Below, in pieces: positions 1 through 12,055 of a stretch of DNA of 64,000 bases. The position numbers and the translations under genes were made by a program. Under the pieces are notes generated by a model. That model searched no databases. It saw only the letters and a program-made list of their open reading frames with translations, and had not been told where the DNA came from. The stretch is from Metapseudomonas boanensis (GTDB lineage: Bacteria > Pseudomonadota > Gammaproteobacteria > Pseudomonadales > Pseudomonadaceae): assembly GCF_018704125.1 (NCBI RefSeq), contig NZ_JAGTIS010000001.1, positions 434,001 to 498,000 on the forward strand, written 5' to 3'. The stretch's first letter is position 1. Each line of letters starts with the position of its first letter.

Positions 1-763
1 TCTTGTGCTCTATGGCACCGCAGGACAGCGCGTTGCGCCGGCCCGGCGCGCCGTCGGCATCGGTGAGGAACTTCGGCACAAGGAACAGCGAAATGCCCTT
101 CACTCCGACCGGCGCGTCCGGCAGCCGTGCCAGCACCAGGTGAATGATGTTCTCGGAAAAGTCCTGTTCGCCGCCGCTGATGAAGATCTTGCTGCCAGTG
201 ATCTGGAAACTGCCGTCCGCCTGGGGCTCGGCGCGGCTGCGCAGCAGGGCCAGGTCAGTGCCGGCCTGTGGCTCGGTCAGGCACATGGTGCCCGTCCATT
301 GCCCGCTGACCATCTTCGCCAGGTAGCCTGCCTTCAGCTCTGCACTTCCGTGTTTGTGCAGCGCCAGCACTGCGCCTTCGGTGAGCCCCGAGTAGACACG
401 GAAGGACAGCGAGGCGCTCATCAGCATTTCGTGGAAGGCGAAAGCCACCAACTGAGGGAAGCCCTGGCCGCCGAACTCCACCGGGCCGGTCATGCTCGCC
501 CAGCCGTTGTCCACGTACTGCCGGTAGGCGGCGCGGAAGCCTCGCGGGGTGCTCACCTGGCCGTTCTCCAGGCGGCAGCCTTCCTCATCGCTGTTGCGGT
601 TGAGCGGGGCAATCTCGTTGGCCGTGAAGGCAGCCGCTTCTTCCAGTACGCCATCAATCAGCTCGCGGTCGAGGCCAGTGCCGAGCTGCGCACAGTGCGC
701 ACTAGCGTCGAACAGCTCATGAAGCACGAAGCGCATGTCGCGCAGGGGGGCCTGGTAGCTCAT
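1..763 (-). CDS. acyl-CoA dehydrogenase, N-terminal part (runs off left edge)
   Basis: FAD enzyme of fatty-acid or acyl-CoA catabolism that forms the alpha,beta double bond of an acyl-CoA. Only the first 254 residues are in the window; the gene continues past base 1. The extreme N-terminus (YQAPLRDMRFVL) is the extension typical of the long (about 600-residue) acyl-CoA dehydrogenases, the group that includes DmdC-like enzymes. The substrate/FAD-loop motif CLTEPQAGTD lies at residues 161-170. The start ATG overlaps the stop of the upstream 3-hydroxyacyl-CoA dehydrogenase as ATGA, so the two are probably translationally coupled. The acyl chain cannot be predicted from what is visible. Confidence 0.88.
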   Translation of the reverse strand, partial: MSYQAPLRDMRFVLHELFDASAHCAQLGTGLDRELIDGVLEEAAAFTANEIAPLNRNSDEEGCRLENGQVSTPRGFRAAYRQYVDNGWASMTGPVEFGGQGFPQLVAFAFHEMLMSASLSFRVYSGLTEGAVLALHKHGSAELKAGYLAKMVSGQWTGTMCLTEPQAGTDLALLRSRAEPQADGSFQITGSKIFISGGEQDFSENIIHLVLARLPDAPVGVKGISLFLVPKFLTDADGAPGRRNALSCGAIEHK

Positions 764-1998
764 GCCTGGCCCTCCTGTACGGCAGCAAAGCACTGGCCGG
801 CGGCGGCCAGCCGTTCGATTAGCGGTGCCGGTCGCCATCTGGCGCCGTGCCGCGCTTCCAGGGTGCGCAGGCGATCGAGGATTGCCGGCACACCTTCGCT
901 GTCGGCCCAGGCCATCGGACCGGCCTTGTCGGCGGGGAAGCCGTAGCCATTCAGGTACACGAGGTCGATGTCGTGGCTGCTGGCGGCGATATTCCCTTCG
1001 AGGATCTTCGCACCTTCGTTGATCAGGGCCAGCAGGCAGCGCGTCTGGATTTCCGCGTTGCTCACCGGTCGTCGAACGAAGCCGAGACGGGTGGACTCCA
1101 CCTCGACCAGGCGATCGACTTCAGCATCCGACTGCGCCTCGCGGCTGCCCGACGCGTAGCGGTAGTAGCCCATCCCGGACTTCTGGCCGAATCGGCCGAG
1201 TTCGCAGAGACGGTTGTCAACCTGCACCGTGGGTTCGTCCTGGCCTTTGCCGGCCAGTCCGCGAGTGCGCCACTCCAGATCGATGCCCACCACGTCGTAC
1301 ATGCGGAACGGTCCCATGGCGAAGCCGAAGGTCTGGAGCGCGCCGTCAACCTGGGCTGGCAGGGCACCTTCGAGCAGCATTAGCCGCGCTTCCTTCACAT
1401 AGGTGCGCAACATGCGGTTGCCGATGAAGCCTTCGCAGTTGCCGGCGACCACGCAGACCTTGCCGATACGTTCGCCCAGGGCCCGGGCTGCCTGCAGCAC
1501 GGCGGGTGCGGTATGGGCGCCGCGCACGATCTCCAGCAGCTTCATGATGTGTGCTGGGCTGAAGAAGTGCAGGCCCAGCACTTGCTCGGGCCGCGCGGTG
1601 ACGGCTGCGATGGCGTCGATGTCCAGTGCCGAGGTGTTGCTGGCGAGGATCGCCGAGGGTTTCAGAGTGGCATCCAGGGTTCGGAAGATCTGCTGCTTGA
1701 GCTCGAGGTTTTCGTACACCGCCTCGATCACAAGATCCGCCGCGGCCAGCGCCGCATAGTCGCTGACCGGTTTCACATAGGCCCTGCGCCGGTTGACCTC
1801 GTCCGCTCCGATGCGGCCCTTGGTTATGTCATGCGCCCAGGTGTCCTCGATCATGCGCAGGCCTTGTTCGAGCATCTGCGGGTTGTTGTCTAGCCACAGC
1901 ACGGGAATCCCGGCGTTAGCCAAGCTGATGACGATGCCCCGGCCCATGGTGCCGGCGCCGATGACGGCGGCCTGCTGCAGGTTGAACGCATTGCTCAT
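760..1998 (-). CDS. 3-hydroxyacyl-CoA dehydrogenase (NAD)
   Basis: A 412-residue enzyme oxidising 3-hydroxyacyl-CoA to 3-ketoacyl-CoA in beta-oxidation. The Rossmann motif GAGTMG is at residues 14-19. The catalytic set expected for the family is present with correct spacing: Ser122, His143 (in GLHFFSPAH), Glu155 and Asn193 (in GFIGNR). The C-terminal half carries the duplicated helical domain, but there is no enoyl-CoA hydratase domain, so this is a stand-alone enzyme and not a FadB-type fusion. I chose the ATG at 1998 because AGGAGA lies just upstream; the open frame extends 36 codons further without recognisable homology. It forms an operon with the acyl-CoA dehydrogenase and is divergent from a LysR gene. 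Confidence 0.9.
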   Translation of the reverse strand: MSNAFNLQQAAVIGAGTMGRGIVISLANAGIPVLWLDNNPQMLEQGLRMIEDTWAHDITKGRIGADEVNRRRAYVKPVSDYAALAAADLVIEAVYENLELKQQIFRTLDATLKPSAILASNTSALDIDAIAAVTARPEQVLGLHFFSPAHIMKLLEIVRGAHTAPAVLQAARALGERIGKVCVVAGNCEGFIGNRMLRTYVKEARLMLLEGALPAQVDGALQTFGFAMGPFRMYDVVGIDLEWRTRGLAGKGQDEPTVQVDNRLCELGRFGQKSGMGYYRYASGSREAQSDAEVDRLVEVESTRLGFVRRPVSNAEIQTRCLLALINEGAKILEGNIAASSHDIDLVYLNGYGFPADKAGPMAWADSEGVPAILDRLRTLEARHGARWRPAPLIERLAAAGQCFAAVQEGQA

Positions 1999-2096
1999 GC
2001 CAGCTCTCCTGAAATCGGTGATGAAGGGTCGCCAACACCCTAAAGATCTAAGTACTATTTGAGAAATGGCATGTTGTGATGCCTGGTATTCATAAG

Positions 2097-2996
2097 ATGA
2101 ATTCATCGAGCTTTGACCTCAACCTGCTGCGGGTGCTCGACGCCCTGCTGCGAGAGCAGAACGTCTCGCGCGCCGCTGAGCGCCTGGCCCTGAGCCAGCC
2201 GGCGGTGAGCAACGCCCTGGCACGGCTGCGCGAGTTGCTGGATGATCCGCTGCTGGTACGCATCGGCCGGCGCATGCAGCCCACGCCTCGCGCCCTGGCC
2301 CTGGAGGGGCCAATTCGTGCTGCTCTGCAACAGATCGAGCAGACCCTGAGTGGCGCCGAGGCGTTCGATCCGGGGCAGAGCCGCCAGCAGTTCCGCATTG
2401 CCCTGACCGACTATGTCGAGCAGCTGTGCATGCCCGGCCTGCTCGCGCGTCTGGGTGACATGGCACCGGGATTGCGCATCGATGTGGCACACCTGAGTCC
2501 GAGCCTGCCAATCGAGGAACTGGACCGGGGCGCGCTGGACCTGGTGCTAGGCCGCTTCGATGAGATCCCGGCGCGCTTCGTGCGCCATCCCTGGCGCATC
2601 GAGACGCTCCAGGTAGCGGTGCGCAAAGGTCACCCACTGCTGGCTGGCGACCTCGACATGGAGAAATTCCTGCGCCTGCGCCACGTCTGGGTGCACGGTG
2701 GCCAGACGCGTGGCATGGTCGACCAGTGGCTGGCCGGACGAGGGCTGTCGCGGCAGATCGTCTACACTACGCCGAACTACCTGCAGGCGGCGCACATCGT
2801 CGCAGGCTCGGACTTGGGTGTGGTCCTGCCAACCCAACTGGCGCGCCAGTTCGCCGCTTTGCTGCCCATCCAGTTGTTCGACCTGCCCTTCGAGCTTGGC
2901 CCCTTCCACCTTGAACTTGTCTGCCTGGCGCAGAAGAGTCGCTTACCGGCATTCGCCTGGCTTATCGAGCAGATATTGCTGATTGGCAAGGGCTGA
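2097..2996 (+). CDS. LysR-family transcriptional regulator
   Basis: A 299-residue LysR regulator. The winged helix-turn-helix is at about residues 23-45 (SRAAERLALSQPAVSNALARL), followed by a substrate-binding effector domain. It is transcribed away from the 3-hydroxyacyl-CoA dehydrogenase/acyl-CoA dehydrogenase operon with only about 100 bases between the starts, the usual arrangement for a LysR protein controlling its neighbour, so acyl-CoA or a related acid is a plausible effector (inference). In-frame alternatives exist at 2076 (GTG) and 2079 (ATG). I prefer 2097 because MNSSSFDLNLLRV matches the usual LysR N-terminus. Confidence 0.87.
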   Translation: MNSSSFDLNLLRVLDALLREQNVSRAAERLALSQPAVSNALARLRELLDDPLLVRIGRRMQPTPRALALEGPIRAALQQIEQTLSGAEAFDPGQSRQQFRIALTDYVEQLCMPGLLARLGDMAPGLRIDVAHLSPSLPIEELDRGALDLVLGRFDEIPARFVRHPWRIETLQVAVRKGHPLLAGDLDMEKFLRLRHVWVHGGQTRGMVDQWLAGRGLSRQIVYTTPNYLQAAHIVAGSDLGVVLPTQLARQFAALLPIQLFDLPFELGPFHLELVCLAQKSRLPAFAWLIEQILLIGKG

Positions 2997-3556: not shown

Positions 3557-3796
3557 CAGTAGTCCTCGACCCGCTCGCCAGGTAGCACGTACTGCACACG
3601 CTAATACAAGGGGACCACCGTCGTGTAGCTGGGGAGCGGCACCGGATCATTGCCGGCCAGGTGCGGGAACACATACATCACCAGTGGCGCCAGAACTGCC
3701 GGTAGATCTCGGTGGCCGCGGTGCGCGTATAACGGGTCTGCACGCCCGGCGCAGCTTGTGTGTAGGCCTCGGTCAACGTCCGCCGGCACCGCTGCG
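3556..3796 (-). pseudogene. C-terminal remnant of an ICE conjugal-transfer lipoprotein (TIGR03751-like)
   Basis: Reading leftwards, one frame encodes TEAYTQAAPGVQTRYTRTA and ATEIYRQF. It continues after a frameshift near 3690 as PLVMYVFPHLAGNDPVPLPS and YTTVVPLY, hits an in-frame TAG at 3602-3604, and ends RVQYVLPGERVEDY before a stop that overlaps the ATG of the ATPase remnant. This looks like the C-terminus of the lipoprotein gene that lies immediately upstream of the conjugative ATPase in integrative elements, so both order and orientation are preserved. The upstream edge is fused to the 3' end of the DUF3726-like gene. Confidence 0.55.
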
Positions 3797-4516
3797 CGAG
3801 CGCTCGGAGCTCTCCACCAGTACTGCTTCTGCAAGCCGGTTGAGGCGTTGCCATAGGGCGGGGGAGATCTCCGTTCCATTCTCCAGAGCCTGCTCGCGGG
3901 CCAGGGCGAAGTCCGCCGGGGTGATACATCGTTCCTCTCGGGCGTCCTCGATCTCCACTGCAGGTTGCGAGTGCGCTGGCGTACCGAGGAGCAGTGTCAG
4001 CGACTGCCGCTTCTCCTGGGGGGCATGTTCGGGGAGGCGGTATTCCTGGTAGGTGGGGTAGGCGGCACCGGCGTCGATCCGGGCCAGGTGACGGCGCACC
4101 GGGTCGTGGCCGTTGTCCCACTGTGCGCGAGCCCACAGGCCCTGCCGCGCACAGTCTGCCAGAACCTTGAGGATGAACTTGCGGTTGTGGCAATGGTGGA
4201 CTTCGAGGCCTATCGACCCCTGCTCCAGCGCCTGCACGCAGGCCAGTTCCAGCAGCGCCGGTAAACAGTTCAGGGCGCTGCGACCATGGCACTCGGCGAT
4301 CAGCGTGGCCGGCCCCTCGACGACCAGCTCCGCTGGCGGGCGTTCGCGGTCGGCCACCAAGTCCAGCGCCCGTTCAAGTTCGCCAAGACCGTCTTCACGG
4401 TGCAGTTGCAGCCAGCTGACCAGGGCTGCGGCGTCCTCATAGTGGCCCGGGGTATAGCCCATGCCCTCGAAAACTCGTTTAAGCAGGGCGTTCAGTTCGT
4501 TGGCGGAAATCAACAT
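3773..4516 (-). CDS. DUF3726-like protein
   Basis: A 247-residue soluble protein. The N-terminus (SANELNALLKRVFEGMG, then a GLGELERAL stretch) resembles the DUF3726 family, which I remember as distantly like the Ldh2/malate-dehydrogenase fold; no reaction is known to me. The ATG at 4516 shares one base with the stop codon of the upstream 572-residue gene (TGATG), so the two are translationally coupled. The C-terminus reads ESSERSRSGAGGR and then runs into the conjugation-gene remnant. A few native residues may have been replaced by the junction. A TTG at 4519 is an unlikely alternative start. Confidence 0.6.
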   Translation of the reverse strand: MLISANELNALLKRVFEGMGYTPGHYEDAAALVSWLQLHREDGLGELERALDLVADRERPPAELVVEGPATLIAECHGRSALNCLPALLELACVQALEQGSIGLEVHHCHNRKFILKVLADCARQGLWARAQWDNGHDPVRRHLARIDAGAAYPTYQEYRLPEHAPQEKRQSLTLLLGTPAHSQPAVEIEDAREERCITPADFALAREQALENGTEISPALWQRLNRLAEAVLVESSERSRSGAGGR

Positions 4517-6234
4517 CAAGGCTTCTCCGGGGTAGGGGCGAGCGGCAGGAACCAGTCATCGTCGAAGGGTTGGCCGATATCCTCCAACAGGGGGGCGCCC
4601 TGGAACATGGTGTTGCGCACCCACAAGCGCGAGCGCGGGTCGAACTTGCTCACGCCGAAGAACGACAGCTTGCAGCGCAACAGATGCATGGGCAGCACGT
4701 CACGGTCCAGCAGGTTGGCGCGGATCTCACCGTAGTGGGTGCGGGCCATGGTCTGGATGCGGCGGACCATGCCGCGCTGCCCAGGATGGCGGAGCAGGAA
4801 GTGCGCGACCTTGTGTTCCGGGTGTTCCACCAGGTAGGCACCGAGCTGTCGATGGCACTGCTGCACCAGGTAGCCGATACCGAGCGGCATCTGCTTGTCG
4901 CGGCCGTCGTCCAGGTTGCAGTTGCCCAGGCGCGGCTCCTGCTTCTCCTCGGAGCGGTACCAGAAAGTCTCCTGGGCGCCGTCGATGGCGAAGTCGATGG
5001 CCAGTGCCCAGTCGTAGCGGGTCTCGATCAGGTGCTTGAGTTCGGAAACGGGCATCTCGGGGTGCAGGTCGGACTGCTCGGGCAGGGCCAGGTGCTCTTC
5101 CAGTTCGTCCACCAGATCCGGGTGCAGTTCCAGGAGGATGCAGTTGATCAGCTCCTGCCCCTGCAGGCTGGCGCGCTGCTGAGACCAGTTCTGCAGAGAC
5201 TGCCAGGCTTGCAGCGGTTGCAGGTCGAGCCCGGCGCGCAGGGCCAGCAGGTCGGCCAGCACACGTTGGTTGTGGCCGGCCTGCCATTCGTCTTCGGTAA
5301 AGGTTTCCTCGATATGGCGGATGGCACGCTCCAGCAGTTGCGGCAGGCGTTCCAGCTGCGCGGCCGTCGGGATGCCGGCGAGGATGCGGGCCAGGGCCAG
5401 TTCGCGCATTTCGATCCAGCGACTGATCAGTTGCGGATGGTTGATCAGGTAGGGCGCCATGCCAAGGCCGGTGGAGTTGCCGATGCCGAAGTAGCGCTTG
5501 AGGGCCGGGGTGAAGGGCACGGCGGTTTCCGGTGAGCGGCGCCGGGCGATGTGCTCGGCCTGCTGCAAGCTGAAATTGCGCAGCATGAAACAGGTGAACA
5601 TTTCGGCGGCAAACGGGCGGGCGAAGTCGGGGTGCTTGCGGCTGACTTTCTCCCAGTCGGCCATGCCCAGCTTGCCGCTGCCGTAGACGGCCGTGGTGCG
5701 GTAAAGGTAGCCGACCCGGGCGATCTGTGCGACGTCGGGCTGGAGCCCCTGGCTCAGGGCCTCCACCACGCTGTCGAAGTTGCGCACGCTGCGATTGGCG
5801 CGGGACAGCACCATCACCTTGGCGTCGAGCCGGCCCGCCTCCTGCAGCGGCACGTTCTGGCGCAGGTAGTCGACATAGGCGTCGTCCACCTCACCTTCGC
5901 AGAGGGCCATGGTCAGGTCCCACTCGCTGGCGATGACCCGGTCGTTGCGCTTTTCCGGTGCCAGGTACTGGGAAAACAGCACGAAGCTGAACAGGTCACT
6001 GCGAGTGCGGATGCGATAGATCACCGTGCCGTAGCCGTCAGCATCCAGTTCGAATCGGGGTGCGTCGATCTGCCATTGCTCGCGCATGATTCGGCGGACC
6101 AGGCTGCGCATGAAGCTCAGACGGCTCTGGTGCAGGCTGCCGAGCCGCTCCAGGTCCATGACCAGGTGGGCGGGGCGCATGTACGGAATCGCAGCCTCAG
6201 GTAGGCTGGATTCCATGATTGAAGGGGTGCTCAT
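4516..6234 (-). CDS. conserved protein of unknown family, 572 residues
   Basis: I do not recognise this family. It has no signal peptide and no transmembrane segment. Notable stretches are a basic N-terminal helix (RLSFMRSLVRRIMREQW), a glycine-rich segment around residues 250-265 (FGIGNSTGLGMAPYLINHP) that could bind a nucleotide or cofactor, and an acidic central part rich in Leu/Glu/Gln. It is followed at once by the DUF3726-like gene through a one-base overlap, and it lies 171 bases downstream of a LysR gene on the same strand. The pair probably acts in the catabolic cluster that starts at 7405, either as an unusual enzyme or as two subunits (inference). Base composition is like the neighbours. 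Confidence 0.75.
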   Translation of the reverse strand: MSTPSIMESSLPEAAIPYMRPAHLVMDLERLGSLHQSRLSFMRSLVRRIMREQWQIDAPRFELDADGYGTVIYRIRTRSDLFSFVLFSQYLAPEKRNDRVIASEWDLTMALCEGEVDDAYVDYLRQNVPLQEAGRLDAKVMVLSRANRSVRNFDSVVEALSQGLQPDVAQIARVGYLYRTTAVYGSGKLGMADWEKVSRKHPDFARPFAAEMFTCFMLRNFSLQQAEHIARRRSPETAVPFTPALKRYFGIGNSTGLGMAPYLINHPQLISRWIEMRELALARILAGIPTAAQLERLPQLLERAIRHIEETFTEDEWQAGHNQRVLADLLALRAGLDLQPLQAWQSLQNWSQQRASLQGQELINCILLELHPDLVDELEEHLALPEQSDLHPEMPVSELKHLIETRYDWALAIDFAIDGAQETFWYRSEEKQEPRLGNCNLDDGRDKQMPLGIGYLVQQCHRQLGAYLVEHPEHKVAHFLLRHPGQRGMVRRIQTMARTHYGEIRANLLDRDVLPMHLLRCKLSFFGVSKFDPRSRLWVRNTMFQGAPLLEDIGQPFDDDWFLPLAPTPEKP

Positions 6235-6405: not shown

Positions 6406-7311
6406 TTATCGCCACTCGGCTGGGTCCAGTTCGTTGTCGCGCAGGATGAACTCGAACAGGGCCTGGGCGGCCACCGGCAGGGAGCGGTTGGCCTGGCGCA
6501 CGATGCCGATATCGCGGGTCACCAGCGGATCGGCTAGGGGGATGAAGCGCAACTGCCCGGCCTCGGCCGGGAAGGCGAAGCGGGGCAGGGTAGTGATGCC
6601 CATGCCGGCCTCGATCATGGCCAGCAGGGAAATCATGTTGGAGATATAGAACTGCGAGTCGCTGACCAACTCTTCGGCGCGGGTGCCGGCCAGCAGGCGC
6701 GAGGTGCCGTTGGCGATCAGGCGCTCACCGCGCAGTTGCTGCCAGCCGAGCTGCGCTTCGCCGGCCAGCGGGTGGTTCTGGTGGCAGACCACGCCGATGC
6801 TGTCTTCCCAGATGGGAATGAAGCGGATGTCACTCTCGGCTTCCCAGAGGCTGGAGATGCCGAAGTCCACCTGTTGGTTCTCCACCATGTTCAGCACCGC
6901 TTCGGAGTTGTCGTCGAACAGGCTGACGTGCAGGTCCGTCGCATCGCCAATGAAGCGCGTGAGGATATCCGGCAGCAAGCGGCTGGCGATGGAGGGCACC
7001 GAGGCGATGCGCAGGTGCCCGGACTTGTACTGGGCTATCAGGTTCATGTCGCGGACCACGCGGTCGTGGTGCTCGATCAGCTCCTTGGCATAAGCCAGGA
7101 ACTGCACACCGAAGGGAGTCAGCTCGGGCTTGGTGACCCGCGCGTTGCGCTTCTCGAACAGGGCCTGACCCAACTTGCCTTCCAGATCGCGGATGGACAG
7201 CGAGATGGCCGGCTGGGTGCGGTGCGCGCGCTCCGCCGCGGCATGGAAGCCCTGCAGCTCGGCAACCCAGACGAAGTGGCGCAACTGGACGATCTTCAGG
7301 TCCGGCAGCAT
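6406..7311 (-). CDS. LysR-family regulator of the BCCT/dipeptidase cluster
   Basis: A 301-residue LysR protein with its helix-turn-helix at about residues 22-44 (HAAAERAHRTQPAISLSIRD) and a full effector-binding domain. It is divergent from the aldehyde dehydrogenase gene with 93 AT-rich bases between, and it is followed on its own strand by the 572-residue/DUF3726 pair. It is therefore placed to control both arms of the cluster. The inducer is unknown; given the BCCT transporter, a quaternary ammonium compound or its breakdown product is a reasonable guess (inference). Confidence 0.87.
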   Translation of the reverse strand: MLPDLKIVQLRHFVWVAELQGFHAAAERAHRTQPAISLSIRDLEGKLGQALFEKRNARVTKPELTPFGVQFLAYAKELIEHHDRVVRDMNLIAQYKSGHLRIASVPSIASRLLPDILTRFIGDATDLHVSLFDDNSEAVLNMVENQQVDFGISSLWEAESDIRFIPIWEDSIGVVCHQNHPLAGEAQLGWQQLRGERLIANGTSRLLAGTRAEELVSDSQFYISNMISLLAMIEAGMGITTLPRFAFPAEAGQLRFIPLADPLVTRDIGIVRQANRSLPVAAQALFEFILRDNELDPAEWR

Positions 7312-7355: not shown

Positions 7356-7404
7356 TATCTGAGACGGCACCTACCATGCGCTCAAAGCGAGAACGGAGGT
7401 GCAC

Positions 7405-8847
7405 ATGCCCAGCAAGATCTTCAACAACTACATCGGTGGTGCCTGGGTCGAAGGTGCCTCGAGTGCTGCCAACCGCAGCCCCGCCAACGTCGAAGACGTG
7501 ATAGGCCTCTACACCCAGGCCAATGCCCTTCAGGTGGATCAGGCAATTGCCATCGCCACCGCCGCCCAGACCATCTGGGCCCGCAGTGGCCTGGAGGAGC
7601 GCTACCAGGTTCTTATGGCCATCGGCAACGAACTCATCGCCCGCAAGGCAGAGCTCGGTGAGCAACTGTCGCGGGAAGAGGGCAAGACCCTGGCCGAGGG
7701 AATCGGCGAGGTCTATCGCTCCGGGCAGTTCTTCCATTACTACGCTGCCGAAGTCCTGCGGCAGATGGGCGAGACGGCCGATTCGGTGCGTCCCGGCGTG
7801 GAGATCGAAGTCCGTCGCGAGCCGGTCGGAGTGGTCGCCATCATCACCCCGTGGAACTTCCCAATGGCCACCGCCGCCTGGAAGATCGCCCCGGCCCTGG
7901 CCTTCGGTAATGCCGTGGTATTCAAACCGGCCAATGCCGTGCCGGCGAGTGCCTGGGCACTGACCGAGATCATTTCCCGGCAGCCCCTCCCTGCCGGCAC
8001 CTTCAACCTGGTGATGGGCAGCGGTGCCGAGGTCGGCGAGCGACTGATCCACTCCAGCGGGATCAATGCCCTGAGCTTCACCGGCTCGGTTGAAACCGGA
8101 CGCCGGGTCGCCACCGCGACGGCCGCCAACTTCGTCCGTTGCCAACTGGAAATGGGCAGCAAGAACGCCCTGGTGGTGCTCGATGACGCGGACCTGGAGC
8201 TGGCGGTGGAATGCGCAGTGAACGGTGCCTTCTTTGGTACCGGGCAGAAGTGCACGGCGTCGTCCCGCCTGATCGTCACCGAGGGCATTCACGACCGCTT
8301 CGTCGAGGCGCTAATCAAGCGCATTAAACAGCTCAAGGTCGGCCACCCGCTGCGCGAGGGCGTGCAGATCGGCCCGGTGATCGACGAGCGCCAGCTGGCG
8401 CAGAACCTGCGCTACATCGAAGGCGCCAAGGCCGAAGGCGCGCGCCTGGTCTACGGCGGCGAGCGCATCGTTGAGGAACACGAGGGCTTCTACATGCGCC
8501 CGGCGCTCTTCGTCGACACCCGCAACGACATGCGTATCAACCGCGACGAGGTATTCGGGCCCATCGCTTGCGTCATCAAGGCGAAGGACTACGAAGAGGC
8601 CCTGGACATCCTCAACGACACGCGCTTCGGCCTGACCGCCGGGATCATGACCCAGTCGCTGAAACACGCTAGCGACTTCAAGCGCCGGGCCAATACCGGC
8701 TGCGTGATGGTCAACCTGCCCACCGCCGGCACCGACTATCACGTGCCTTTCGGTGGCCGCAAGGACTCCAGTTTCGGCCCGCGCGAGCAGGGGCAGTACG
8801 CCCGCGACTTCTACACGGTGGTCAAGACCGTCTACGTGCGTCCCTGA
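7405..8847 (+). CDS. NAD(P)-dependent aldehyde dehydrogenase (semialdehyde dehydrogenase type)
   Basis: A 480-residue aldehyde dehydrogenase oxidising an aldehyde or semialdehyde to the acid. Expected residues are present: Asn151 (TPWNF), the FTGSVETG nucleotide motif at 225-232, Glu249 (LEMGSKN) and the nucleophile Cys283 in FFGTGQKCTASSR. That active-site context is typical of the alpha-ketoglutarate semialdehyde/2,5-dioxovalerate dehydrogenase group, not of betaine aldehyde dehydrogenase, so the substrate may be a carboxylated semialdehyde (inference). The ATG at 7405 follows GGAGG. It is the first gene of a plus-strand set with dipeptidase, BCCT transporter and RidA. Confidence 0.9.
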   Translation: MPSKIFNNYIGGAWVEGASSAANRSPANVEDVIGLYTQANALQVDQAIAIATAAQTIWARSGLEERYQVLMAIGNELIARKAELGEQLSREEGKTLAEGIGEVYRSGQFFHYYAAEVLRQMGETADSVRPGVEIEVRREPVGVVAIITPWNFPMATAAWKIAPALAFGNAVVFKPANAVPASAWALTEIISRQPLPAGTFNLVMGSGAEVGERLIHSSGINALSFTGSVETGRRVATATAANFVRCQLEMGSKNALVVLDDADLELAVECAVNGAFFGTGQKCTASSRLIVTEGIHDRFVEALIKRIKQLKVGHPLREGVQIGPVIDERQLAQNLRYIEGAKAEGARLVYGGERIVEEHEGFYMRPALFVDTRNDMRINRDEVFGPIACVIKAKDYEEALDILNDTRFGLTAGIMTQSLKHASDFKRRANTGCVMVNLPTAGTDYHVPFGGRKDSSFGPREQGQYARDFYTVVKTVYVRP

Positions 8848-8860
8848 GGGAGAGAGCGCC

Positions 8861-9847
8861 ATGCAAGAGCTTCTGATGATCGACGGCCTGCAGTACTCCA
8901 ACTGGAGCCCTGAGCTGTTCCGGCAGATGCAGGAAGGTGGCCTGAGTGCCGTCCACGCCACCATCGCCTACCACGAAACCGCCCGCGAGACGCTGTCGCG
9001 CATCGGCGAATGGAACCGCCGCTTCGAGGCCTTTCCCGAGCTGATCCGCCCCGTTCGCCAGGCCTCGGACATTCGCCTGGCACAGCAGGAAGGACGGGTG
9101 GGGATCTTCTTCGGCTTCCAGAACTGCTCGCCCATCGAGGACGACATCGACCTGGTGGAAGTTTTCCGCCAGCTCGGGGTCTTCATCATGCAACTGACCT
9201 ACAACAACCAGAGCCTGCTGGCTTCCGGTTGCTACGAGCGCGAGGACAACGGCATCAGTCGTTTCGGCCGCCAGGTGATCGAAGAGATGAACCGCGTCGG
9301 CATGCTTATCGACATGTCCCACAGCGCCGAGCGCAGCACCCTGGAAGCCATCGAGCTGTCGAGCCGGCCGGTGATCATCTCCCACGCCAACCCCACCAGC
9401 TTCCATGCGGCCAAGCGCAACAAGTCCGATGCGGTGCTGCGCGGCATCGCCGAGTCCGGCGGGCTGCTCGGTTTCAGCACCTATCCCTTCCACTTGCGCG
9501 GAGGGTCGGCCTGCCAGCTCGATGAGTTCTGCGACATGGTTGCGCGCACCGCGGACCTGATGGGCATTGACCACATCGGCATCGGTACCGACCTCTGCCA
9601 GCAGCAGCCGTTGCAAGTGCTGGAGTGGATGCGCAATGGCCGTTGGAGCAAGGCCAAGGATTACGGCGAAGGTTCGGCGGACAACGCCGATTGGCCGGCC
9701 CCACTGCACTGGTTCCGTGACAGCCGCGACTTCCCCGTCATCGCCCAGGGTCTGCGCCAGCGCGGCTTCGCGGAGGACGAGGTGCGCAAGATCATGGGCC
9801 TGAACTGGCTGAACCTGCTGGAACGCGGCACCACGCCGCAGAACTGA
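8861..9847 (+). CDS. membrane-dipeptidase-family (M19) metallohydrolase
   Basis: A 328-residue protein of the renal-dipeptidase (M19) TIM-barrel family. Family hallmarks include LTYNNQ, the IDMSHS histidine, ISHANPTSF and GIDHIGIGTD. The usual N-terminal HxD metal motif is replaced by DGLQYS, as I remember for the Pseudomonas subgroup found near carnitine/glycine-betaine genes, so the metal site may be altered and the substrate need not be a dipeptide. It begins 13 bases after the aldehyde dehydrogenase stop, with a GGGAGAG ribosome site. In this setting it may hydrolyse an amide or ring bond of the imported compound (inference). Confidence 0.85.
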   Translation: MQELLMIDGLQYSNWSPELFRQMQEGGLSAVHATIAYHETARETLSRIGEWNRRFEAFPELIRPVRQASDIRLAQQEGRVGIFFGFQNCSPIEDDIDLVEVFRQLGVFIMQLTYNNQSLLASGCYEREDNGISRFGRQVIEEMNRVGMLIDMSHSAERSTLEAIELSSRPVIISHANPTSFHAAKRNKSDAVLRGIAESGGLLGFSTYPFHLRGGSACQLDEFCDMVARTADLMGIDHIGIGTDLCQQQPLQVLEWMRNGRWSKAKDYGEGSADNADWPAPLHWFRDSRDFPVIAQGLRQRGFAEDEVRKIMGLNWLNLLERGTTPQN

Positions 9848-10016: not shown

Positions 10017-10083
10017 AACCCCTGGTCATTCGCCCCGCGCGTGCCGCATGCCGGCGGGGCCTACGCTACAACCTGGAGGCATC

Positions 10084-11634
10084 ATGAAAGTGTTCCCGAC
10101 CCAGACCATAGGCAGCACGCCGATGAAGCACCCGGCACTGCAAGGCATCGATTGGCCGCTGTTCGTCATCAGCGGCGGCTTCCTGCTCAGTTTCCTGGTG
10201 GCGGCGCTGGTGGACATCGACGCCGTCTCGGCGCTGGTCAACACGCTGTTCGCCTGGTCGACGAAAGTCTTCGGACTCTACTGGCAGGTGCTGATGCTGG
10301 CGACCTTCCTGGTCAGCCTGGGCATCTGCTTCAGCAAGTGCGGCCGCGTGCGCCTGGGTGGCGTCGACCGGCAGCCGGAAACCAGCACCTTCAACTGGAT
10401 CGCCGTGATCATGTGCGCACTGCTGGCCGGGGGCGGCGCCTTCTGGGCGGCTGCCGAGCCGCTGATGCACTTCGCCAGTCCGCCGCCGCTGTTCCCCGGC
10501 GTGCAGCCGAACACCGAGCTGGCCGGCCATCTGGCCCTGGCCCAGTCGTTCGTGCACTGGGGCTTCCTCGCCTGGGCAGTACTCGGCAGCCTGCTGGCGA
10601 TCGTGCTGATGCACCTGCACTACGACAAGGGCTTACCGCTGGCGCCGCGTACGCTGCTGTATCCGCTGCTGGGCGAGCGCGCACTCAAGGGACCCATCGG
10701 CAACCTCGCCGATGCTTCCTCGATCATCGCGGTGGTCGCCGGCACCATCGGCCCGATCGGCTTCCTCGGCCTGCAGATCAGCAATGCGCTGCAAGCCGTG
10801 TGGGGCCTGCCCAATGACCTGCTGACCCAGTCCATCACCATCATCCTGGTGACGGCCATGTACACCACGTCCTGCCTGGTAGGCCTGAACGGCATCCGTT
10901 TCGTCAGCGAGATCAACGTGTGGCTGATGATCGGCCTGGCACTGTTCATGATCGTGGCCGGCCCGACCCTGTTCATCCTCTCGGGCTTCCCAGTGGCGTT
11001 CGGCATGCAACTGGAAAACTTCCTGCCGATGACCCTGTACCGCGCCGATCCCAAGTGGCTCGACTGGTGGACGGTATTCTACTGGGGCTGGTTCATCGGC
11101 TACGCCCCCATGATGGGCCTGTACGTGGCCAAGATTTCCCGGGGCCGCAGCATTCGCCAGATCATCATGACCCTGTCGATCGTCGCGCCGCTGGTCACCA
11201 TGTTCTGGTTCACCGTGGTCGGCGGCACCGGCATCGGCCTGGAACTGGAGAACCCCGGCATCGTAACCGCCCACGGCACTCAGCCCGAGGCCATGTTGCT
11301 GGGCGTGACCCAGAGCCTGCCACTGGCGGGGCTGGTGTCGGCGCTGTTCCTGTTCCTCAGCTTCATCTCGGTAGCCACCAACGGTGATGCCATGGCCTAC
11401 ACCGTGGCCATGGCGATGTCCGGCAACGACTCGCCGAAGAAGTGGCTGCGTGCCTTCTGGTGCATCGGCATGGGGCTGGCTGCGGTGGTGCTGATCACCA
11501 TCGGCTCGGGTGGGGTCACAGCGTTGCAGTCCTTCATCGTCATCACCGCCGTGCCGGTGTCTCTGCTGATCCTCCCAGCGTTGTGGAACGCCCCACAGAT
11601 AGCCCGCCGCCTGGCGCGCGAGCAGCAGGTCTAG
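10084..11634 (+). CDS. BCCT-family transporter (betaine/carnitine/choline type)
   Basis: A 516-residue inner-membrane carrier with about twelve hydrophobic segments, importing zwitterionic or quaternary-ammonium solutes. Family features are visible: the GGGAFWAAAEP segment near residue 120, DWWTVFYWGWFIGYAP around residue 325, and VAKISRGRSIRQ shortly after. The long acidic or basic cytoplasmic tails of osmotically regulated carriers are missing, which fits a nutrient-uptake role. The ATG at 10084 is preceded by TGGAGG. It sits between the dipeptidase and RidA genes, implying that the pathway consumes a betaine-like compound. The exact solute cannot be read from the sequence. Confidence 0.93.
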   Translation: MKVFPTQTIGSTPMKHPALQGIDWPLFVISGGFLLSFLVAALVDIDAVSALVNTLFAWSTKVFGLYWQVLMLATFLVSLGICFSKCGRVRLGGVDRQPETSTFNWIAVIMCALLAGGGAFWAAAEPLMHFASPPPLFPGVQPNTELAGHLALAQSFVHWGFLAWAVLGSLLAIVLMHLHYDKGLPLAPRTLLYPLLGERALKGPIGNLADASSIIAVVAGTIGPIGFLGLQISNALQAVWGLPNDLLTQSITIILVTAMYTTSCLVGLNGIRFVSEINVWLMIGLALFMIVAGPTLFILSGFPVAFGMQLENFLPMTLYRADPKWLDWWTVFYWGWFIGYAPMMGLYVAKISRGRSIRQIIMTLSIVAPLVTMFWFTVVGGTGIGLELENPGIVTAHGTQPEAMLLGVTQSLPLAGLVSALFLFLSFISVATNGDAMAYTVAMAMSGNDSPKKWLRAFWCIGMGLAAVVLITIGSGGVTALQSFIVITAVPVSLLILPALWNAPQIARRLAREQQV

Positions 11635-11641
11635 TCCCTTG

Positions 11642-11663
11642 GGAGGGCTTGTCCCTCCTTTTT
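11642..11663 (+). terminator. terminator or attenuator between BCCT and RidA genes
   Basis: Stem GGAGGG (11642-11647) and CCCTCC (11653-11658), a 5-base loop, followed by five T. It starts 8 bases after the BCCT stop, so RidA may be expressed by read-through or from its own promoter. Confidence 0.65.
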
Positions 11664-11683
11664 CTTCCCTCCTGGAGAGTTCA

Positions 11684-12055
11684 ATGAAACAGGCAGTCAG
11701 CACCCGTTTGTACCCGTCCAAGGCCCCGCTGGAGTGGGCCGTGATCGGTAACGGGACCTTGTACACGGCGCAGATCCCTATCGATGTCGAAGGGCGTGTG
11801 GTCGAAGGGGGCATCGAGGCGCAGACGCGACAGACCCTGGACAACCTCAAGCACACCCTGGACTGCGCCGGGCTGGGCCTGGACGCGGTGACCCAGGTGC
11901 TCATCTACGTCACTGACCGCAGCTACCTGGCCACGGTGAATGCGGTCTACGCCGAATACTTCGCCGCTCCCTTCCCGAACCGCGCTGCCGTGGTCGTGGC
12001 GGGCCTTGCCCGCGAGGAGATGCTGGTGGAACTGGTGGTTTACGCGGCGGCCTGA
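11684..12055 (+). CDS. RidA/YjgF/YER057c-family enamine/imine deaminase
   Basis: A 123-residue protein of the RidA superfamily, members of which hydrolyse reactive enamine or imine intermediates. The C-terminal signature is recognisable (NRAAVVVAGLAREEMLVELV), including the arginine that binds the substrate carboxylate in true RidA proteins. The ATG at 11684 is preceded by TGGAGAG. Its place as last gene of the aldehyde dehydrogenase-dipeptidase-BCCT set suggests that the pathway forms an enamine/imine intermediate or releases ammonia (inference). Confidence 0.85.
   Translation: MKQAVSTRLYPSKAPLEWAVIGNGTLYTAQIPIDVEGRVVEGGIEAQTRQTLDNLKHTLDCAGLGLDAVTQVLIYVTDRSYLATVNAVYAEYFAAPFPNRAAVVVAGLAREEMLVELVVYAAA

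Follow-up and report, generated by a model that had tools for sequence, protein, structure and literature searches.

What reaction could be carried out by a conserved pair of proteins of which the larger belongs to no described family? The question is raised by a stretch of 64,000 nucleotides (hereafter the window) from Metapseudomonas boanensis (contig NZ_JAGTIS010000001.1, positions 434,001 to 498,000), in which the gene for a large protein, here called U, is coupled to the gene for a smaller one, here called D. An initial annotation had presented the pair as a good candidate for a new enzyme, a judgement borne out by the conservation and coupling of the two genes and by the place of U outside any known family. 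Our opinion is evenly balanced on the proposal that U and D form one heteromeric enzyme which starts the breakdown of homarine (N-methylpicolinate) or of a close relative, the choice between a RidA deaminase and a full-length Ldh_2 reductase in the operon setting the end product.

Coupling of the two genes

In the window, the stop codon of U (TGA, 4518-4516) and the start codon of D (ATG, 4516-4514) have one A in common within the sequence TGATG (4518-4514), as had been reported for this junction; production of the two proteins in a fixed ratio, which the initial annotation took to follow, is at most a possibility. Of the 76 loci considered, L027 and L033 stop within U and did not enter the coupling count. 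In the 74 loci with the end of U in view, linkage and coupling are direct observations: an open reading frame (ORF) lies directly downstream of U in all 74, overlapping it or at most 20 nucleotides (nt) away in 73. A script placed 70 of these ORFs in overlap with U or starting within 20 nt, and the four others were re-read: D overlaps U in two loci, starts 1 nt past U in one, and is present behind a broken U in the last, L035. In this locus, which belongs to an HTCC2207-type metagenome-assembled genome, the U frame is broken and D and the other operon genes are still present.

The ORF directly after U is D-like in 73 of the 74 loci; 66 were recognised by tblastn, four (L088, L090, L092 and L095) by blastp to other D proteins, and three (L097, L100 and the haloarchaeal locus L099) by hhalign at 95-96.5%. 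The partner of U in L105 is doubtful as a D protein (hhalign 37%, no blastp match to other partners). Among 20 further loci from the class of genome G319, D was detected in 19 and an M19-like amidohydrolase gene in 19. A known family for U and genes lying mostly apart, both named beforehand as adverse outcomes, were not seen in the loci examined. The description of the two proteins as a "coupled pair of unknowns" holds for the coupling (74/74 loci with an ORF directly 3' of U) and goes too far for D, which has an Ldh_2-type fold.

D, a trimmed relative of Ldh_2 enzymes

The assignment of D to DUF3726 (PF12525) proved correct, the window protein scoring 49.2 bits and its homologues in L018 and L087 53.8 and 96.0 bits, for a cut-off of 22.1; window D and the tested alphaproteobacterial-type homologue (L087) are thus members of the family. 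The Pfam model spans 73 positions; the present description extends to the full protein, with its fold and partner. No mention of DUF3726 was found in the literature searched. The AlphaFold model of D (predicted local distance difference test, pLDDT, 88; predicted template modelling score, pTM, 0.85) matches 27 chains with Foldseek at E≤0.001 (best E 1e-10), all of the Ldh_2 type. With VIA-align, 27 chains reach Z≥8 and the 15 entries listed are all Ldh_2-type (Z 15.8-19.3), the next unrelated row standing at 3.5; the best match (Z 19.3) has a root-mean-square deviation (rmsd) of 3.7 over 223 residues.

In sequence comparisons the relationship is faint. Against the PF02615 profile, D scores 18.9 bits in the window, 29.7 in L018 and 36.2 in the archaeal L099, all below the cut-off of 38.8, and a weak HMMER match (E 0.0007 in all) aligns D residues 1-109 with YiaK 1-114 and D 191-232 with YiaK 292-333. 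Some results speak against a wider claim of homology: the separate segments have domain E-values of 0.71 and 17, and hhalign of a full-length Ldh_2 profile gives 25% (weak) with D and 1.7% (nil) with the archaeal partner, both values being perhaps due to a profile of four rows.

D has its fold in common with the Ldh_2 family (PF02615), represented by YiaK, ureidoglycolate dehydrogenase and delta1-piperideine-2-carboxylate reductase, but unlike these enzymes it has lost about 100 central residues and the catalytic His. In Ldh_2 enzymes the His of the SHG motif is catalytic and the central region binds NAD(P). At the aligned position of D, placed by the weak HMMER match to YiaK, a His is found in 1/15 rows of alignment A2, 0/12 of A3 and 0/31 of A6 (A2 and A6 overlap), the residue being otherwise variable. 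Because the catalytic His is lost and the central region is missing, D is a trimmed and probably non-catalytic Ldh_2 relative, and a role as an active dehydrogenase was rejected on the same two grounds.

U, a large protein outside known families

The claim that U falls in no recognised family was upheld, since no Pfam or NCBIfam family matches it at E≤0.1. Among five divergent relatives compared with Pfam at E≤1, four gave nothing and L105 gave two chance-level matches (E 0.1-0.15). U is a real gene and not a chance reading frame: a single scan of contigs from named genomes yielded relatives at 36 loci, and the 35 that were aligned are 54-92% identical to U. The glycine-rich stretch noticed earlier, FGIGNSTGLGMAPYLINHP, corresponds to residues 249-267, and five of its residues (G250, G252, N253, G258 and P267) are invariant in all 30 sequences of a diverse alignment, that of the window among them. 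A second motif, FWYRSEEK.EPRLG, covers residues 424-437. Among the 30 diverse sequences many Arg, Glu, Asp, Asn and Gly residues are invariant and H266 is nearly so. Longer frames in L084 (909-1004 residues) and L052 (938 residues) were considered as fusion proteins and rejected, the upstream part being judged, by translation, an unrelated low-complexity reading of GC-rich DNA.

The AlphaFold model of U (pLDDT 78, pTM 0.83) has no match among solved PDB structures (best Foldseek E 0.6; best VIA-align Z 4.2 with rmsd 3.5 over 83 residues, whole chain), which is no proof of a new fold. An aspartase/argininosuccinate lyase fold was also tried and rejected, the helical matches reaching only Z 2.3-3.3 and being judged chance. 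Loops 185-189, 256-259 and 422-437 are among the most conserved parts of U, yet among the least confident in the model, as would fit a requirement of these loops for a ligand or a partner.

RidA or a full-length Ldh_2 reductase

The operons differ in a further gene, which encodes either RidA or a full-length Ldh_2 reductase. Across 96 loci, many of which are close relatives and so not independent, 30 have RidA only, 34 Ldh_2 only, none both and 32 neither. In the first 76 loci (30, 26, 0 and 20, respectively) a match had to lie within 8.5 kb and to reach 45 bits for RidA or 90 bits for Ldh_2, several contigs being shorter than this distance; in the 20 additional loci from the class of G319 (Ldh_2 in eight, RidA in none, neither in 12) every match with E≤1e-4 in the fetched sequence was counted. 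A further RidA-like match (39%), located some 10 kb from U in L100, was left uncounted. On a U tree built by a quick method from 93 of the 96 rows (L027, L033 and L035 left out), in which long branches are present, the state changes at least six times among the 61 rows that have one.

In the PDB, the profile built from four full-length Ldh_2 rows of the operon (alignment A4, L011, L012 and L080 left out) comes closest to delta1-piperideine-2-carboxylate reductase (332.6 bits, the next at 192.1). This reductase acts on a six-membered nitrogen ring with a 2-carboxylate, and on N-methyl imines. We infer that RidA fills the role taken by the Ldh_2 reductase in other operons.

Gene organisation around the pair

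As had been stated, the pair lies inside a catabolic cluster, with genes for a LysR regulator, an aldehyde dehydrogenase (ALDH), the M19-like amidohydrolase, a BCCT transporter and RidA around it (Table 1). After D, the M19-like gene is the most constant neighbour of U (within 8.5 kb in 71/76 loci); within the same distance, 54 of the 76 loci have a strong ALDH match and 52 have one to the LysR of the window. The best NCBIfam scores of the ALDHs of the window and L018 are for 2-oxoglutarate-semialdehyde-type dehydrogenases, below cut-off. Fifteen gene clusters occur in at least 10 of 67 loci, with U, D, ALDH, M19, BCCT, RidA, Ldh_2 and regulators among them, and the Pfam matches of their members include no known oxygenase. 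In SAR92-type loci, recurrent clusters add an iron alcohol dehydrogenase, a sulfotransferase/tetratricopeptide repeat (TPR) protein, a coenzyme A (CoA) transferase and a TonB receptor. Four U-D copies (L092, L094, L095 and L096) lie in another common neighbourhood, with no ALDH, RidA or Ldh_2 near.

Table 1. Position and assignment of the U-D genes and their neighbours in the window
Feature	Length (residues)	Coordinates	Strand	Assignment
D, small subunit	247	3773-4516	-	DUF3726 match; Ldh_2-type fold, about 100 residues shorter, without catalytic His
U, large subunit	572	4516-6234	-	ATG-started ORF; family without any profile model
LysR regulator		6406-7311	-	PF03466, 146.5 bits; upstream of U-D, divergent from ALDH operon
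Aldehyde dehydrogenase (ALDH)		7399-8847	+	Best NCBIfam: alpha-ketoglutaric semialdehyde and 2,5-dioxovalerate dehydrogenases, below cut-offs
M19-like amidohydrolase		8858-9847	+	PF01244, 287.4 bits; best PDB match 2I5G
BCCT transporter, betaine type		10048-11634	+	PF02028, 485.6 bits; start approximate
RidA-family imine/enamine deaminase		11639-12055	+	PF01042, 82.8 bits; start approximate

Linkage to N-methylglutamate dehydrogenase genes

A link to genes of the N-methylglutamate dehydrogenase (Mgd) type is directly observed in few loci. In Ruegeria sp. TM1040 and Roseateles, SoxBDAG-type genes annotated as sarcosine oxidase subunits adjoin the operon, and Sox/Mgd-type genes lie near it, at varied distances, in L091, L031, L032, L012, L017, L149, L150 and L153; none is found beside the window operon. 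Judged by distance to gmaS, the SoxBDAG-type genes are probably Mgd: in G055, G313, G226, G099 and G183, relatives of the TM1040 SoxB with 73-82% identity are separated from gmaS by between 42 nt and about 15 kb. Only over-cut-off gmaS matches were used, since family matches occur in 29/29 genomes and 14/14 controls (over cut-off in 11/29 and 1/14). In Ruegeria pomeroyi, too, gmaS-mgs and mgdABCD stand in one cluster (PMC13390433). G115, G135 and G205 have a TM1040-type SoxB (77-90%) and gmaS not over the cut-off, and seven of the nine RidA-type genomes tested in the window's class are without a SoxB-like match at E≤1e-60. The window genome itself (G000:C64:236148-241753) carries gmaS over the cut-off together with a SoxB-like match (42%) that has one in-frame TGA; this gmaS could serve to assimilate any methylamine set free by RidA.

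Proposed pathway

Homarine is suggested as the substrate by the combination of a piperideine-reductase-like Ldh_2 with N-methylglutamate dehydrogenase-type neighbours. We infer this substrate, every reaction below and the ring-opening role of U-D from gene content. Briefly, D, of Ldh_2-type descent, would hold the ring carboxylate or act as a scaffold, the Ldh_2 fold being one that also binds six-membered N-heterocycle 2-carboxylates, and U would bring new chemistry, namely ring opening, probably at C5-C6. The aldehyde so formed would be oxidised by ALDH, and the N-formyl group would be taken off by the M19-like amidohydrolase, leaving N-methyl-2-iminoglutarate. Two exits would then exist: (i) in the window, RidA would hydrolyse this imine to 2-oxoglutarate and methylamine; (ii) elsewhere, the Ldh_2 reductase would give N-methylglutamate, which Mgd would convert to glutamate. 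The balance would be homarine + O2 + 3 H2O = 2-oxoglutarate + methylamine + formate, in keeping with one reaction that opens the ring, an ALDH, an amidohydrolase that deformylates and, last, hydrolysis (RidA) or reduction (Ldh_2) of N-methyl-2-iminoglutarate. Formate would be dealt with by purU and folD, found near the Roseateles operon. Ring opening is assigned to U-D by elimination, because the other steps have plausible genes and U-D is the sole conserved pair left.

The same kind of job, opening of an N-methylpyridinium ring, is known from the trigonelline pathway, in which TgnA/TgnB are followed by steps of an aldehyde dehydrogenase and an amidohydrolase. Trigonelline is an isomer of homarine, and the authors who describe its opening by TgnA/TgnB think action on homarine unlikely for steric reasons (PMC8269262). 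Unlike TgnA/TgnB, U and D match no oxygenase, flavin monooxygenase or flavin reductase family in Pfam or NCBIfam.

Homarine genes, homABCDER, were reportedly described by Ferrer-Gonzalez et al. in Nat Microbiol in 2026, and are said to lead to N-methylglutamate and to occur in SAR11, SAR116 and Rhodobacterales; the present genes may be the same, and no mention of homABCDER was found in the literature searched. So described, they agree with the U-D operon in gene number, regulator, Mgd link and Roseobacter-type and small-genome occurrence; unlike them, the window has RidA instead of the Ldh_2 reductase. The U-D operon probably belongs to the pathway published in 2026, and what may be new is the mechanism of U-D and the RidA-type variant in the window. 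A part of Mgd in homarine catabolism is stated in PMC13390433, citing Ferrer-Gonzalez 2026.

A bolder suggestion, which we regard as possible and somewhat doubtful, is that U is the first known member of a new ring-opening class of unseen fold and with no obvious metal, haem or flavin site, having a dead, trimmed Ldh_2 protein as its substrate-holding subunit and ranging from a haloarchaeon to small-genome, ocean-type bacteria, a RidA/Ldh_2 swap deciding the fate of the nitrogen, methylamine or glutamate. If U-D opens the homarine ring, an enzyme and a marker gene would be at hand for a widespread step, and a fold and a function for a DUF family. The exclusive occurrence of RidA and the imine reductase leads to a direct prediction, methylamine release versus glutamate, which would matter for ocean nitrogen. 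Homarine, a nitrogen compound common in the sea, has been reported to account for up to 3% of the particulate carbon of surface seawater (PMC8269262); an authors' correction indicates that homarine values had been overstated.

Contrary evidence and alternative explanations

Several observations weigh against homarine opening by U-D. No His or Cys is invariant in U among the 30 diverse sequences and no cofactor motif was seen, hence no mark of an oxygenase, and chemistry needing several protein His/Cys ligands is not suggested. In peptidase M19, H-x-D metal ligands lie near the N-terminus. The deformylase role of the M19-like amidohydrolase is unsure because the Pfam match begins at profile position 35 and misses this N-terminal M19 segment; IDGLQYSNW, near the start, aligns with 2I5G. 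Two full-length Ldh_2 members have L-sulfolactate dehydrogenase as their best NCBIfam match, far below cut-off. As to Mgd, the two nearest TM1040 SoxB relatives (90% and 88%) are not near gmaS, the SoxB-like gene nearest gmaS is 42% identical in G000 (3 kb) and 52% in G319 (18 kb), and at the threshold used only 3/76 loci have a SoxB match no more than 8.5 kb from U. In the class of G319, RidA-type genomes (G319, G099, G083 and G265) do have a SoxB-like match; SoxB presence as support for two fates is confounded with phylogeny, which may explain the pattern. In 2021, R. pomeroyi was tested on both compounds and grew more poorly with homarine than with trigonelline (PMC8269262). Finally, L086 and L093, from roseobacter-like genomes, hold a second U-D-M19 set with no strong ALDH match, beside MttB and dimethylglycine-dehydrogenase-like genes as well as homocysteine S-methyltransferase and phosphoenolpyruvate (PEP)-mutase-like genes (Pfam names from L086). 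These sets have perhaps a different methylated substrate, and with such other contexts U-D may serve more than one.

The MttB/dimethylglycine-dehydrogenase-like surroundings also favour an alternative in which U-D acts, by ring opening or as an initial step, on a different N-methylated substrate (trigonelline, stachydrine, N-methylproline or another betaine), and the operon of this organism is not one for homarine. The operon of Pseudomonas sp. MPC6 adjoins a ring-hydroxylating dioxygenase alpha subunit, a BCCT gene and two mandelate-racemase-type genes, that of Phaeobacter adjoins dimethylsulfoniopropionate (DMSP) genes, and the window strain is close to soil-type Pseudomonas. We nevertheless consider another substrate rather unlikely: the piperideine-reductase-like Ldh_2, the 2-oxoglutarate-semialdehyde-type ALDH, the Mgd-type linkage and the marine groups best fit an N-methyl-2-carboxylate ring. 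For trigonelline in particular, a gene of the TgnA/TgnB type (role as described in PMC8269262) is absent from the clusters found in at least 10 of the 67 loci.

The constancy of the U-D-M19 unit (M19 in 71/76 loci), its retention without a strong ALDH match near in L086, L088, L090 and L093-L096, and the lost His of D would all suit an accessory pair, which would serve in the maturation or assembly of the M19-like amidohydrolase instead of catalysing ring opening. Such a role seems improbable to us, as the conserved motifs of U are rich in invariant Arg, Glu, Asp and Asn, the pattern to be anticipated for an active site, and L080, L092, L099 and L105 have no M19 match near U-D. That U-D is an NAD(P)H-dependent reductase, D providing hydride transfer as in Ldh_2 enzymes, agrees with the fold of D (Z up to 19.3) and is very improbable in view of its missing 100 or so residues and of the near-absence of His at the catalytic position in A2, A3 and A6, weakly aligned by HMMER there.

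Distribution

In the window genome U is a single-copy gene, and it is present in 9/18 genomes of the genus (the window genome included). The 36 named-contig loci belong to Pseudomonas, Marinobacterium, Endozoicomonas, SAR92/Porticoccaceae and other gammaproteobacteria. Among sampled whole genomes, 29/398 in the phylum (the window genome included) and 53/385 in the class of G319 carry U; we take this class to be Alphaproteobacteria because its genes resemble those of Roseobacter plasmids. The family occurs there in small genomes of 1.2-1.6 Mb, and three of the 53 are single-contig genomes of 1.2-1.4 Mb with fetched regions of 28-36% G+C; these small carriers look like small-genome ocean bacteria.

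On plasmids, U is found in 168 of 72,556 records, including those of Ruegeria sp. TM1040, Phaeobacter, Sinorhizobium, Caballeronia and the haloarchaeon Natrinema. The plasmid pMPC6-328K of Pseudomonas sp. MPC6 (L101), typed as conjugative, holds the whole operon beside the dioxygenase, BCCT and mandelate-racemase-type genes mentioned above, and the operon may therefore move between strains. On the plasmid of Phaeobacter inhibens P10 (L106), the operon adjoins DMSP demethylation genes, including the demethylase and dmdD. Roseateles is weak evidence for Betaproteobacteria, because the record is marked UNVERIFIED_ORG and its U falls among sequences of the alphaproteobacterial type; Caballeronia is the other betaproteobacterial carrier.

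Beyond D, the window contains a 3-hydroxyacyl-CoA dehydrogenase-like gene (760-2106, minus strand, 448 residues) divergent from a second LysR gene (2076-2996, plus strand), whose best score is for BsrA, below its cut-off; these two genes apparently form a separate unit.

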